A stretch of 40,583 nt of DNA from Tannerella sp. (GTDB taxonomy: Bacteria; Bacteroidota; Bacteroidia; Bacteroidales; Tannerellaceae). Below are positions 11,903 to 18,254 of this stretch, piece after piece (the first letter of the stretch is position 1; each line of letters begins with the position of its first letter). The stretch covers positions 1 through 40,583 of the forward strand of contig JAISTS010000137.1 of NCBI GenBank assembly GCA_031272455.1, read 5' to 3'. The position numbers and the translations under genes were made by a program. The notes below the pieces were generated by a model. The model did not search any database and was not told the DNA's origin. It saw nothing but the letters and a program-made list of their open reading frames with translations.

Positions 11903-13857
11903 CACAAAGACCCGTTACCGACTGGCTCCCTACGACGAAGAAAGAAAGCGAACTGCGCGGATGGGACGAACTCGATGTAATCATTTTCAGCGGCGATGCC
12001 TACGTTGACCACCCGTCTTTTGGGGCTGCCGTAATCGGGCGCACGCTCGAAGCCGAACGACTGCGCGTTGCCATCGTTCCGCAACCTGACTGGCGCGGCG
12101 ACCACCGCGATTTCAAGAAACTCGGTGCGCCCCGTCTGTTCTTCGCCATTGCTCCGGGTGCTATGGATTCGATGGTCAATCACTACACCGCCAATAAGCG
12201 TATGCGCAGCGACGACGCTTATACGCCCAACAAACAGCACGGATTGCGACCGGATTATCCTACCATTGTGTATGCAAATATCTTGAAACAGCTCTATCCC
12301 GACACTCCGGTTGTGATAGGCGGTATAGAGGCTTCGATGCGACGGTTGGCACATTACGACTACTGGCAGGACAGCCTTCGTCCGGGCATCCTTGCCGACA
12401 GTCCCGCCGACCTGCTCGTTTACGGTATGGGCGAGAAACCTGTCCGCGAGATTGTGCGCCGATTGCGCGAAGGCTATCAGTTTGACGACCTGACAGACAT
12501 ACCGCAAACAGCATATATCACCAATCGCTTTTCGGCAAAACACAGCGACATCGAACTCCATCCGTATGATGAATGTCGCAAAGACAAACACAAGCAGGCG
12601 ATGAACTTCAAAATCATTGAAGAGGAATCGAACAAATATCAGTCGCAGGCTCGCCTTGTGCAGCGTACAAAAGGACGGACGGTTGTTGTCAATCCGCCCT
12701 ATCCTCCGATGACGGAAGCCGAGATCGACGCCACATTCGACCTGCCCTATACCCGCCTGCCGCACCCGAAATACGCAGGAAAGACTATTCCGGCATACGA
12801 GATGATTAAGTTCTCGGTCAACAGCCATCGCGGATGTTTTGGCGGATGCGCCTTTTGCGCTATCGCCGCTCATCAGGGCAAATTCGTCGTTTCGCGCAGT
12901 CGCCGCTCAATAATCAACGAGATAAACGCCATAACTCAAATGCCCGATTTCAAGGGATACATTAGCGACCTTGGCGGACCGACTGCTAATATGTACCGTA
13001 TGCGTGGCATAGACGAGCGTCTTTGTCGGCAGTGCGTCAAGCCCTCGTGTATTTACCCTTCGGTATGCAAGAACCTTGGCGCCGACCACGCACCCCTGCT
13101 CGGTCTCTACAAAGCGGCTCGACAGGTGCGCGGAGTGAAAAAGGTGTTTATCGGCAGCGGCATACGGCACGACCTGCTGATGCACCCGTATTCCGACCGG
13201 ACGTGGCAACGCGCCGCCCGCGAATATCTTGAGGAACTGATGATAAACCATACATCGGGACGGCTGAAGGCGGCGCCCGAACATACCGAAGACGAAGTGC
13301 TTAAGATGATGCGCAAACCTCCGTTCGCCGTTTTTGAAGCCTTCAACCGGCTGTTCGGCGAGATAAATATGAACGAAAGGCTTAATCTGCAGATGATACC
13401 GTACTTTATCTCCAGTCATCCCGGATGCAGCGATGTCGATATGGCGGAACTGGCGTTAAAGACCAAGCAGATGCGCTTTCGCCTCGAACAGATACAGGAT
13501 TTCACGCCTACGCCTATGACACTCGCCACAGAGATGTACTACACCGGCATCAATCCTTATACTATGCAGCCGGTACACTGTGCACATTCGCGCGAAGAAA
13601 AGCTCGACCAGCACGCATTTTTCTTCTGGTATCTGCCCGAATATGCCAAACAAATAATACAAATACTGCGCAGGATTAAGCGCAACGACCTGATAGAAAA
13701 GCTGTTTGGAAAGCAGGCTTTGCGACCGGAACGTGAGCGCCAACCGCGTGCAAACGGCAGACAAAACAATCAAAACGACCGCAGAAACCGGACAAACGAC
13801 CGCCGCAACAGCTCAAACGGACGCCCGCCAAAAGACCGCAAGCGCCCATCACGATAG
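11881..13857 (+). CDS. YgiQ-family radical SAM protein
   Basis: DVIIFSGDAYVDHPSFGAAVIGR, GGIEASMRRLAHYDYW, CFGGCAFCAI radical SAM cluster motif, LKAAPEHTEDEVLKMMRKP; overlaps the ispE end. Confidence 0.93.
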   Translation: MERKDEITQRPVTDWLPTTKKESELRGWDELDVIIFSGDAYVDHPSFGAAVIGRTLEAERLRVAIVPQPDWRGDHRDFKKLGAPRLFFAIAPGAMDSMVNHYTANKRMRSDDAYTPNKQHGLRPDYPTIVYANILKQLYPDTPVVIGGIEASMRRLAHYDYWQDSLRPGILADSPADLLVYGMGEKPVREIVRRLREGYQFDDLTDIPQTAYITNRFSAKHSDIELHPYDECRKDKHKQAMNFKIIEEESNKYQSQARLVQRTKGRTVVVNPPYPPMTEAEIDATFDLPYTRLPHPKYAGKTIPAYEMIKFSVNSHRGCFGGCAFCAIAAHQGKFVVSRSRRSIINEINAITQMPDFKGYISDLGGPTANMYRMRGIDERLCRQCVKPSCIYPSVCKNLGADHAPLLGLYKAARQVRGVKKVFIGSGIRHDLLMHPYSDRTWQRAAREYLEELMINHTSGRLKAAPEHTEDEVLKMMRKPPFAVFEAFNRLFGEINMNERLNLQMIPYFISSHPGCSDVDMAELALKTKQMRFRLEQIQDFTPTPMTLATEMYYTGINPYTMQPVHCAHSREEKLDQHAFFFWYLPEYAKQIIQILRRIKRNDLIEKLFGKQALRPERERQPRANGRQNNQNDRRNRTNDRRNSSNGRPPKDRKRPSR

Positions 13858-14187
13858 CACAGCGTCCTGATGTTTTATCGCCCAGTCAATCAACATTCGT
13901 ACCGACGGCATTAGCGATTTGCCCGTTTCGGTCAGACTGTATTCCACACGCGGCGGTATCTCTGCGAACGCCTGACGCGAAATAAGATGGTCGGCTTCGA
14001 GATGTTTAAGCGTGGATGTCAGCATCTTGTGCGAAATATCGGGAATCGCTTTGCGCAAACCGCCGTAACGCATACGGTCGGCGTCTTTCAGCGTCCAAAG
14101 CACCAGCAACGACCATTTATCGCTCATACGCGACAAAACATTGCGAATCGGGCAAGTCGGATATCTTAAATCTATCTCTTTCATCAT
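13849..14187 (-). CDS. HxlR-family winged-helix transcriptional regulator
   Basis: TCPIRNVLSRMSDKWSLLVLWTL, MRYGGLRKAIPDISHKMLTSTLKHLEADHLISRQAFAEIPPRVEYSLTETGKSL; N-terminal conserved Cys. Confidence 0.93.
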   Translation of the reverse strand: MMKEIDLRYPTCPIRNVLSRMSDKWSLLVLWTLKDADRMRYGGLRKAIPDISHKMLTSTLKHLEADHLISRQAFAEIPPRVEYSLTETGKSLMPSVRMLIDWAIKHQDAVLS

Positions 14188-14437: not shown

Positions 14438-14965
14438 ATGACAAAGAAAGTAGCGATTTTAGCAGTTAACCCGGTAAACGGGTCAGGTTTGTTCCAGTAT
14501 TTGGAATCATTTTTTGAAAACGGCATACCGTATCGTGTATTTGCCGTAGCCGAGACGACGCAGATTAAGACCAATTCGGGCGTTTCGATTGAGGCGGATG
14601 ATATAGTCGCCCATTTGAAAGGCGCTGAAAGCGAGTACGATGCGCTGGTTTTTGCCTGCGGCGATGCGATGCCTAAGTTTACGGAAAACGCCGGACGTCA
14701 GGAAAATCAGGACCTGCTGTCAGTAATCAAGACCTTTGGCGACAGCGGGAAAACGATTGCCGGTCATTGCGTTGGCGGTTTGCTCTTTGATATTACCGGA
14801 GTAGCGGCGGGCAGGCGATTGGCGATGCATCCGTTCGTTCGTGGCGCAGTAAAAAGTGCGATTGCGACTGACAGGGCGTTTGCTGTTGAAGAAAACTTCT
14901 ACACGGCTCAAAACGAAAACAGCTTGCATCTGCTGATGCCCGAATTGATTAAGGTGTTGAAATAA
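14438..14965 (+). CDS. DJ-1/PfpI family protein
   Basis: KKVAILAVNPVNGSG...EYDALVFACGDAMPKF...GKTIAGHCVGGLLFDITGVAAGRRLAMHP; nucleophile-elbow Cys in GHCVGG. Confidence 0.85.
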   Translation: MTKKVAILAVNPVNGSGLFQYLESFFENGIPYRVFAVAETTQIKTNSGVSIEADDIVAHLKGAESEYDALVFACGDAMPKFTENAGRQENQDLLSVIKTFGDSGKTIAGHCVGGLLFDITGVAAGRRLAMHPFVRGAVKSAIATDRAFAVEENFYTAQNENSLHLLMPELIKVLK

Positions 14966-15088: not shown

Positions 15089-15096
15089 TACCTTTG
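15089..15096 (+). promoter_or_regulatory. -7 element TACCTTTG for the nikR-like gene
   Basis: TAnnTTTG match 25 bp before the ATG. Confidence 0.55.
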
Positions 15097-15120: not shown

Positions 15121-15522
15121 ATGAGTTTGAAACGCTTTGGAGTATCGCTTGAAGGCGAATTATTGGATGAATTAGATCGCTATGTCGATGCGAATGGTTT
15201 CGCTAACCGTTCGCAGGCTATCCGTTTCCTTGTCGAAAAGAATGTCGCCGAGCAGAAATGGCAGTGCGGGCACATTGTCGCCGGAACGGTTATAATAATG
15301 TATAACCAGACCAAGCGCAAAATCACGTCGAAGATAGCAGCCATTCAGCAAAACTATCAGGACGTTATCCTGTCGTCTTCGCAATATTACCTCAACGAGC
15401 AGTTTTGCCTCCATATAGCGACAGTTACCGGTGAGGCGTTTCGACTGACCGAACTGTCAGACAAGCTTATTTCGATCAAAGGTATCAAACACGGCAAACT
15501 CGTGATGAGTAGAGCCGACTGA
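15121..15522 (+). CDS. NikR-family ribbon-helix-helix regulator with altered metal site
   Basis: N-term RHH (LKRFGVSLEGELLDELDRYVDANGFANRSQAIRFLV); C-terminal ACT-like domain aligning with E. coli NikR up to C95 and the GxxHGKL tail. Confidence 0.88.
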   Translation: MSLKRFGVSLEGELLDELDRYVDANGFANRSQAIRFLVEKNVAEQKWQCGHIVAGTVIIMYNQTKRKITSKIAAIQQNYQDVILSSSQYYLNEQFCLHIATVTGEAFRLTELSDKLISIKGIKHGKLVMSRAD

Positions 15523-15554: not shown

Positions 15555-15579
15555 TATTCTTTTTTACGCAAAAAGAATA
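15555..15579. promoter_or_regulatory. Candidate NikR-type operator TATTCTT-N11-AAGAATA
   Basis: Perfect 10-bp inverted repeat tattcttttt-tacgc-aaaaagaata upstream of the TonB-dependent receptor promoter; an AT-rich terminator is the alternative because a T-run follows. Confidence 0.5.
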
Positions 15580-15620
15580 TTTTTTTCACCCAAAAGTAGC
15601 ACGAAATCAAAAAAACGTGT

Positions 15621-15628
15621 TACCTTTG
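15621..15628 (+). promoter_or_regulatory. -7 element TACCTTTG for the TonB-dependent receptor
   Basis: TAnnTTTG match 27 bp before the ATG at 15655. Confidence 0.6.
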
Positions 15629-15654: not shown

Positions 15655-17544
15655 ATGAAAAAAGTATTATTTCTGACATTTATCGCTTTAAGCGCAGCAA
15701 ATCAAACGTTTGCAAGTGATGAAGACACGGCGCCCGTCGATACGACGATAAGCCTGAAGCAGGTTGTCGTAACGGCTAACAAGATTGAAGTAAACCGCAA
15801 TACTATTCCGCTGTCGATCTCGGTTGTCGGTCGCGAAGAGATAGAGGCGAGCAGCGAATCGGCTTTACTGCCTGTGCTGTCGCACCGTGTGCCAGGGCTA
15901 TTTGTTACCGAGAAAGGCGTTACGGGTTTTGGAGTAAACACCAATTCGGCAGGTACGGTTAACATTCGTGGTATAGGTCAGAGCAACAAAGTGCTTATGC
16001 TATTCGACGGACAGCCGCAGTGGGCTGGAGTGTTCGGTCATTCACTGCCGGACACTTATGTAGCTTCGGATGTCGAGCGTGTTGAGGTCATTCGCGGTCC
16101 CGGTTCGTTGCTTTACGGCTCAAACGCAATGGGCGGTGTGATAAACATTATAACCCGTCGCCAGCAGGATGACGGTCGCCGCACTCAGGCGCGGATAATG
16201 TATGGCTCCTATAATACGCAGAAGTATATGATTAACAATGGATACAATGCCGGACGTTTTAGCAGTTTTATCTCCGTCAATCACGATCGTAGCGACGGAA
16301 TGAGAGCTAATTCCGATTTTCGTATCACTAACGGTTTTGCCAATCTGGGCTATCGGCTTAACGACAACTTTCGCCTGAAAGGCAGCGCAAGCCTTGCCAA
16401 ATCGAACAGTCAGAACTCAGGTCCGGTCGATAATCCTATTACAGATAACACAATGGATGTATTGCGCGGGACAGCTTCGGTCAGTCTTACTAATGCTTTC
16501 GAGAAGTCGAGCGGCGCTATTCAACTGTTCTACAACTGGGGACATCACGATATTAATGACGGATACCGCCCGCAAACCGGTGGAACGCCACGTACATTTC
16601 GCTTTAAATCCGATGACCATAATACAGGATTGTTAATGTATCAGACGTTCAGGCTCTTCGATGGTAACAGCTTTACTGCCGGGATTGACTATAAAAACTG
16701 GGGAGGGCATGCGTGGAACGATACTATCAATGGACGAATCGGTGAAATCGTTCGTCGATCTGTTAATGAGGTTGCAGGCTATGCGATTATGCAACAGGAT
16801 CTTTTTGACCATTTAAGTATCAACGCCGGTCTGCGCTATGAGTATAACGATGCCTATGGAAGTCGCTGGACGCCGCAGGCAGGCATTACGATTCGTCCGT
16901 TTGAAGGCAACGCAATCAAACTGTCGTACTCCGAAGGCTACCGCAGTCCTAACATACGCGAACTGTACATTTCGTATCCGCCGTATTCAATGGCTAATCC
17001 TGACCTGAAGCCCGAAACGATGCAGAATTATGAGATTTCGGTCGGACAGTATCTTTTCGACAACAAATTCTTCGCCGAAGTTACCGCATTTTATCTCGAA
17101 GCCAAGAATCTGATTACCGGCGAGCAGGGAACGTTGACCAATATAAATAAGATCTATAATAAGGGTATCGAAGCCGAACTGACCTATTATCCGCTGAAAA
17201 ACCTTTGGATTACGGCGAATTTCAGTCAGCTCTCGACCAGCATACCGATAGAAGCGGCGCCGAAACGCAAGTTCTTCGCCGAAGCAACCTATACGGTCAA
17301 AAATCTTACGCTGACCGTAGATGTCGAGTCGATCGGACGTCTGCAAAAAGTAGGCGGTACGGAGGACGACAAGATTTGCTATGCACTTCTTAATGCCAAA
17401 GCATCATACCTTTTCGGTACGCAGGATAAAGGATTGACCATCTTTGTCAAAGGTGAGAATCTGACCGGCAAAGAATACGAGATCCTGAAAGGATTCCCGA
17501 TGCCGAAAACCGTTGTTATGGGAGGGGTGAATGTGGTTTTTTAG
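15655..17544 (+). CDS. TonB-dependent outer-membrane receptor
   Basis: Signal peptide; plug domain (LPVLSHRVPGLFVTEKGV...GTVNIRGIGQSNKVLMLFDGQPQ...VERVEVIRGPGSLLYGSNAMGGVINIITRR); C-terminal barrel ending VGGTEDD...GENLTGKEYEILKGFPMPKTVVMGGVNVVF. Confidence 0.93.
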   Translation: MKKVLFLTFIALSAANQTFASDEDTAPVDTTISLKQVVVTANKIEVNRNTIPLSISVVGREEIEASSESALLPVLSHRVPGLFVTEKGVTGFGVNTNSAGTVNIRGIGQSNKVLMLFDGQPQWAGVFGHSLPDTYVASDVERVEVIRGPGSLLYGSNAMGGVINIITRRQQDDGRRTQARIMYGSYNTQKYMINNGYNAGRFSSFISVNHDRSDGMRANSDFRITNGFANLGYRLNDNFRLKGSASLAKSNSQNSGPVDNPITDNTMDVLRGTASVSLTNAFEKSSGAIQLFYNWGHHDINDGYRPQTGGTPRTFRFKSDDHNTGLLMYQTFRLFDGNSFTAGIDYKNWGGHAWNDTINGRIGEIVRRSVNEVAGYAIMQQDLFDHLSINAGLRYEYNDAYGSRWTPQAGITIRPFEGNAIKLSYSEGYRSPNIRELYISYPPYSMANPDLKPETMQNYEISVGQYLFDNKFFAEVTAFYLEAKNLITGEQGTLTNINKIYNKGIEAELTYYPLKNLWITANFSQLSTSIPIEAAPKRKFFAEATYTVKNLTLTVDVESIGRLQKVGGTEDDKICYALLNAKASYLFGTQDKGLTIFVKGENLTGKEYEILKGFPMPKTVVMGGVNVVF

Positions 17545-17612
17545 TAGATAGTAGCAAGTAGATTGTAGTAAGTAGATTTACCGTTTACCCTGCACCGTGA
17601 ACCGTGAACCAA
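17543..17612. repeat. 10-unit heptanucleotide array with two core families
   Basis: In register: agtagat|agtagca|agtagat|tgtagta|agtagat|ttaccgt|ttaccct|gcaccgt|gaaccgt|gaaccaa; overlaps the receptor TAG stop. Confidence 0.85.
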
Positions 17613-17648
17613 GTGTGTTTTTATTTTTTAATTGTTATTTTTGTAAGA

Positions 17649-18254
17649 ATGAGCCGTTTTATTTTGTCATTGCTGATTTTAAGTTTTGTTGCCTGTTCAG
17701 GGCAAGACGATTTTGAGCTTTCGGTACGTGAGGCTGTAACCAATCAGATGAACGAATATCCGAAATCCACGTTGCGTGATTTGTATAAGAATTTTTTTCA
17801 AGATCGCTTCGGTCCCGGGCATCTTATCGCTGATACTGCAGCGGCAGCCGCTTATCTGCGCGAAGAACTTGCATCTTTTGAGCAAGCTAAGGGCGCTGCC
17901 TACGAACCGACCGGACGACTTGGTAATTTCTACCGTGTCAACCTGTCAGTTGTAAAAGACGCAAAGGTGCCTGCCGAACGGCTTCTCGATGCATTTGTCC
18001 GTAGTGCAAACAATGTTGTGGCGCCCACTCCCGACGAATGGCGTAAGGAATGGCGAGCAATCGACCGTATCATCCGCTCGATGCAACTGTACCTCCCAAA
18101 CGAAGAAGCCGACCACATCGAGATTAAGATCTTTGTTGACAGCGGAAATTATGTCATGCACCACAGCAGTATCTATGAAGAGACCTACGAGCCGCACTAT
18201 CGCATTGTCGAAAAAACAATTTTTGAACAGGAAATTTTGCCGCTTATAAATTAA
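17649..18254 (+). CDS. Conserved lipoprotein of unknown function; start re-called from 17604
   Basis: Lipoprotein signal MSRFILSLLILSFVAC|SGQ; motif YPKSTLRDLYKNFFQDRFGPGHLIADTAAAAAYLREEL. Confidence 0.78.
   Translation: MSRFILSLLILSFVACSGQDDFELSVREAVTNQMNEYPKSTLRDLYKNFFQDRFGPGHLIADTAAAAAYLREELASFEQAKGAAYEPTGRLGNFYRVNLSVVKDAKVPAERLLDAFVRSANNVVAPTPDEWRKEWRAIDRIIRSMQLYLPNEEADHIEIKIFVDSGNYVMHHSSIYEETYEPHYRIVEKTIFEQEILPLIN

Follow-up and report, generated by a model that had tools for sequence, protein, structure and literature searches.

A Bacteroidales NikR-family regulator without most of its ancestral Ni(II) ligands and its predicted operator at a TonB-dependent receptor gene

Introduction

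NikR is the textbook Ni(II) sensor. A member of its family encoded in Tannerella sp. (GenBank assembly GCA_031272455.1, contig JAISTS010000137.1) raises the question of whether a regulator that has given up most of its Ni(II) ligands still keeps an operator and a target, and which signal it might then read. We analysed the 40,583 nucleotides of this contig, referred to here as the window, together with related loci and genomes (Table 1).

Table 1. Features around the regulator gene, in window positions
Feature	Position	Strand	Remarks
HxlR-type regulator gene	13849-14187	-	divergent; with the next gene an ordinary upstream pair
DJ-1/PfpI-family protein gene	14438-14965	+
Candidate -7 box of the nikR-like gene	15089..15096	+	TAccTTTG; no operator copy there
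NikR-family regulator gene	15121..15522	+	133 aa, ATG start; RHH domain ~1-48, NikR_C ~53-131
Predicted operator	15596..15623	+	GTAGCACG-N12-CGTGTTAC; 28 bp inverted repeat; motif conservation, 0-mismatch site
-7 box of the TonB gene	15621..15628	+	TAccTTTG, which we take to be a Bacteroidota-type -7 promoter box; overlaps right half-site of predicted operator
TonB-dependent receptor gene	15655..17544	+	629 aa; Pfam Plug + beta-barrel; predicted sole target
Uncharacterised conserved ORF after the TonB gene	17604..18254	+	~200-216 aa; cluster c1, with homologues close to the TonB gene at 8 further loci

A NikR relative by fold

The window protein joins an RHH domain to a NikR_C (ACT-like) domain, the latter matching its Pfam model at 79.8 bits (cut-off 22), and it passes the curated cut-off of the NCBIfam NikR equivalog NF003381 (113.2 bits vs 105); RHH_1 alone scored 19.5 bits, slightly below the Pfam cut-off of 20.5. 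Its PDB matches were the NikR proteins of P. horikoshii (1.7e-28), E. coli and H. pylori, and an AlphaFold model (mean pLDDT 88, pTM 0.63) likewise had NikR as its nearest PDB structures, with Foldseek E values down to 2.5e-12. The shared NikR fold claimed in the original prediction is established by these profile, PDB and model matches, and the retention of DNA-binding residues was also borne out, R5, G7 and S9 being identical to those of canonical Bacteroidales NikRs. A C-terminal HGKL, described as a kept feature, is present and matches P. horikoshii and Bacteroidales; the E. coli protein has HGHL instead.

In E. coli NikR, the Ni(II) ligands are H87, H89 and C95 from one subunit and H76 from its neighbour (PMC7055735). 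The alignment to this protein proved gapless through the metal-binding domain, as the original prediction had stated, and three of the four ligands are indeed substituted, H76/H87/H89/C95 reading Q77/Q88/Y90/C96 in the window protein and alike in about 80 relatives. Compared with the NikRs of E. coli, P. horikoshii and H. pylori, the protein shares the RHH and NikR_C fold, a 27-28 bp operator of two half-sites (predicted here) and a transport-type target, but lacks three of the four Ni(II) ligands as well as the low-affinity-site residues E30/D34 (Q32/F36 here). The loss of E30/D34 is not diagnostic, since sampled canonical Bacteroidales NikRs are without them too. The high-affinity ligand set, by contrast, is missing despite a passing NF003381 score, so that this score does not warrant the label 'nickel-responsive'. 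Judged from its sequence, the window protein is a NikR relative by fold and predicted operator, and its ligands set it apart from a nickel-responsive NikR as that protein is defined.

Loss of the Ni(II) ligands across a clade

Among 79 distinct close relatives, the window protein counted in, the position of H76 is Q in 63 (the rest being R, L, Y, G, H, S, E or K), that of H87 is Q in 74 and that of H89 is Y or F in all 79, whilst C96 and a His at position 98 are each present in 77. Alignment of homologues thus bears out the existence of a Q/Q/Y/C group within Bacteroidales, across which the Ni(II) ligand set has been lost; histidines at the metal positions, which would have spoken against the substitutions, are not the pattern of this clade. 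With about 80 relatives alike, sequencing error or chance is excluded as the source of the substitutions. A misaligned protein or a pseudogene is likewise a practically negligible explanation, refuted by the gapless alignment, the many intact relatives and the conserved operator.

Across the Bacteroidales sampled, a protein has either the complete ligand set (HHHC) or two of its members at most, and the degenerate sets include SHFY, IRIH, LRTS, AFRC and QRIV; no degenerate protein of the sample keeps a His at position 89. After dereplication, the comparison set comprised 78 degenerate rows and, from the main Bacteroidales group, 48 HHHC rows. H63, H64, H93 and E98 are largely retained among the HHHC rows and largely replaced among the degenerate ones, and C49, W47, E44, K46 and T110 are invariant in 78/78 degenerate rows. 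In a tree built with the ligand columns, the degenerate rows were nested inside the canonical group with 2 changes; a quick tree without these columns gave 6 changes, with a single degenerate clade not rejected (AU p=0.225). No description of a NikR clade of this kind was found in the literature searched, a coverage that lay outside most subscription journals.

Candidate replacement residues

The original prediction had suggested a redox or thiol signal read through a lone Cys. The window protein has two cysteines, C49 and C96, and the relatives L026, L299 and L038 have Thr or Ser in place of the latter, leaving that suggestion unsupported. The operator motif and the TonB gene are still present in both of the C96-less loci checked (L026 and L038). 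C96 was consequently rejected as an obligatory sensor, and sensing that depends on it is unlikely as a clade-wide mechanism. C49 was tried as a clade-specific replacement ligand and rejected as diagnostic, because it occurs in 18 of the 48 canonical HHHC proteins too, the independent-pair tests being low in power. Even so, as candidate means of sensing, C49 and a small ligand bound in the ACT-like domain are both preferable to C96.

These residues bear on whether a Ni(II) response persists through a rebuilt site, for instance C96 and H98 with Q, Y or backbone donors, or C49. The wide conservation of C96 and H98 in the clade, the appearance there of H98 in place of Glu, the invariance of C49 and the nickel-type gene contexts described below would all suit such a site. 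Nevertheless, we consider it rather unlikely: besides the relatives without C96, two of which keep operator and receptor, position 77 is variously Q, R, L, Y, G, K, E, T and others, and the degenerate proteins L162, L164 and L168 are without both C96 and H98.

The drift of two of the four ligand positions, as if unconstrained in an otherwise conserved domain, could instead indicate a constitutive repressor with no effector, its C-terminal domain retained solely for tetramer assembly. However, permanent repression of a conserved receptor offers no obvious benefit, and A106, L109, T110, H124, K126-M129 and R131 are strictly invariant; parts of the C-terminal domain being so fixed, a function beyond scaffolding is suggested, and we regard an effector-free repressor as quite improbable.

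A predicted operator at the receptor promoter

Scored as an inverted repeat of GTRRCACG half-sites with a gap of 12 and a threshold of 14/16, the operator motif was found in 36 of the 44 loci with an adjacent TonB receptor; none of the other inverted gaps from 6 to 19 gave more than one, and dinucleotide shuffles averaged 0.05. With the direct-repeat form (gap 12 or 13) included, 42 of the 44 loci carry the motif, and behind the regulator in the 37 loci without an adjacent receptor it was found in none. In L011 and L039, where the receptor is inverted, the motif still lies at the receptor promoter and so goes with the receptor, not with the regulator gene's 3' end. Across 80 loci the matches were at the receptor promoter with few exceptions (L045 and L070, near the nikR start, and one in L046). 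At the level of sequence, these patterns establish both the conservation of the operator and its tie to the receptor. An inverted repeat at 15555-15579, earlier proposed as the DNA to which the regulator binds, does exist in the window but recurred in 0/80 other loci and was set aside as the operator.

The right half-site runs into TAnnTTTG in 21 of the 44 loci (motif search), an arrangement that suggests repression, TAnnTTTG being the form of the -7 box. Within the window, 15596-15623 alone matches the operator with fewer than three mismatches, and it is also the sole perfect (0-mismatch) site in its own genome; strict matches numbered at most one per genome in 125 Tannerellaceae genomes. The regulon therefore apparently has one target. 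A wider regulon was considered and rejected, the genome's single 2-mismatch site and its 3-mismatch matches both being outnumbered by those of a reversed-pattern control.

In the reversed delta-proteobacterial NikR signal, reported for Desulfotalea psychrophila, the operator reads GTAACAC-[N13/14]-GTGTTAC (Rodionov et al. 2004, PMC545781), and its half-site word is identical to that of the predicted operator. The two systems differ in their targets, which in the delta-proteobacterial regulon are mostly nikMQO-type transporters (PMC545781) and here a TonB receptor. The enterobacterial NikR half-site, by comparison, is GTATGAT, against GTAACAC in the window. By sequence, the predicted site has the two half-sites and 27-28 bp length of a NikR operator. 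Canonical HHHC Bacteroidales NikRs that lie beside TonB or CbiM genes (L188, L189, L194, L195, L203 and others) resemble the window system in their DNA-contact residues, homologous receptor and half-site word, but keep all four ligands, and several have a direct rather than an inverted repeat. Direct repeats with a gap of 13, replacing or beside the inverted repeat, were also seen in L013, L016, L020, L022, L027, L074, L076-L078 and L188. The regulator family accordingly seems to tolerate both orientations of the half-site.

The receptor and its gene neighbourhood

The regulator had been placed directly upstream of the receptor; the two genes do adjoin, but the receptor starts 132 nt past the regulator stop. 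Such pairing is not universal, 37 of 81 loci having no adjacent receptor in forward orientation. The ORF after the TonB gene has no Pfam family; it possibly lies in the same operon, and its product may be a partner in uptake. Elsewhere, genes named from their sequence as FucP-like permeases follow the regulator or receptor (L008, L037, L051, L057, L062, L065 and L080), with a FucI-like gene, also judged from sequence, next to the permease in L051, L065 and L080.

Over nearly its full length, the window receptor is 35-44% identical to receptors of the same family encoded right behind canonical HHHC NikRs, and just 20-29% identical to unrelated NikR-adjacent receptors. It shares the plug and barrel architecture of BtuB, ShuA and CirA (TonB-dependent B12, heme and catecholate receptors), but its sequence scores are weak and well under those family cut-offs; the TonB vitamin B12 receptor model TIGR01779, for example, gave 163.2 bits against a curated cut-off of 599.7.

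Genes for the nickel-pincer cofactor lie behind other degenerate NikRs. In L159 the order is larE, larC, larB (larE and larC profile-confirmed), in L163 a DsbD_2-like membrane protein gene, larE and larB (larE and larB profile-confirmed), and in L162, L167, L171 and L173 lar genes were judged by sequence. The arrangements vary: larE comes directly after the regulator in L159, L167, L171 and L173, with larC next in L159, L171 and L173 and larB third in L159 and L173, and in L162 and L163 larE and larB come behind the membrane protein. CbiM lies behind canonical NikRs in L195 and L203. Since several degenerate NikRs directly precede larE/larC/larB, or a membrane protein gene followed by larE and larB, the nickel-pincer nucleotide is a possible ligand; a Bacteroidales NikR branch that has ceased to sense metal and instead uses its ACT-like domain to detect a small ligand, be it a nickel cofactor or a different one, with operator and uptake targets kept, is nonetheless a long shot.

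The regulator was found in 23/23 Tannerellaceae genomes with a full-length [NiFe]-hydrogenase and in 81/102 without, a co-occurrence with p=0.013, or 0.10 among genomes at least 90% complete, by a statistic that ignores kinship. The link to nickel is circumstantial, as the window's own genome (85.5% complete) had no detectable [NiFe]-hydrogenase, urease alpha or LarC, and 80 of the 103 other Tannerellaceae carrying the regulator are without a full-length [NiFe]-hydrogenase. A Lar_N match in the own genome is weak (40 bits) and spans just part of the domain. Synthesis of the NPN cofactor by the QQYC-clade genomes was considered and rejected, LarC being detected in 0/12. In two genomes with a degenerate NikR (G614, contig C4, and G694, contig C652), the LarC match is split in two pieces, one with a TAA stop.

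The original prediction held that the receptor might take up something other than nickel. That view is weakened by the occurrence of the same receptor family beside canonical HHHC NikRs and of nickel-pincer cofactor genes behind other degenerate NikRs. An alternative, in which receptor and regulator serve cobalamin, heme or a siderophore and the nickel context reflects ancestry alone, draws on the receptor's best, if weak, scores for vitamin B12 and heme models, on the own genome's want of a classical nickel enzyme and on the pairing of sugar-permease-like genes with the regulator in some loci; set against these are scores far under the B12 and heme cut-offs and a receptor family that also adjoins NikRs with an intact Ni site, and we think it unlikely, though the most serious of the alternatives. 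Receptor family, lar and CbiM neighbours and hydrogenase co-occurrence speak for a nickel-related receptor but fall short of proof.

Proposed mode of regulation and implications

Our preferred reading, to which we give a probability of roughly two in three, is that the window protein is a NikR-derived local RHH repressor of one TonB receptor, acting at the predicted operator on a signal that is not read via the ancestral Ni(II) site. The regulator presumably is what binds the NikR-type 28-bp operator GTAACACG-N12-CGTGTTAC (window 15596-15623), and the bound protein would reach into the receptor's -7 box, block RNA polymerase and so repress the receptor. The sensory (ACT-like) domain probably no longer uses square-planar Ni(II), and the repressor would be released or engaged by some other signal. 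It probably still governs nickel-related uptake, reading need by another route; candidates are a metal or thiol site at a new place, with C49 invariant and C96/H98 retained by most of the QQYC clade, and a small ligand bound by the C-terminal domain.

Automatic annotation attaches the name 'nickel-responsive' to such proteins, as in Parabacteroides distasonis. This label is unsafe, because a widespread clade of gut bacteria keeps the operator and target and dismantles the sensing site. The clade amounts to a natural experiment in which a metalloregulator survives the loss of its metal site and, with a predicted operator and a single predicted target defined, the question of its effector is directly testable in culturable Parabacteroides.
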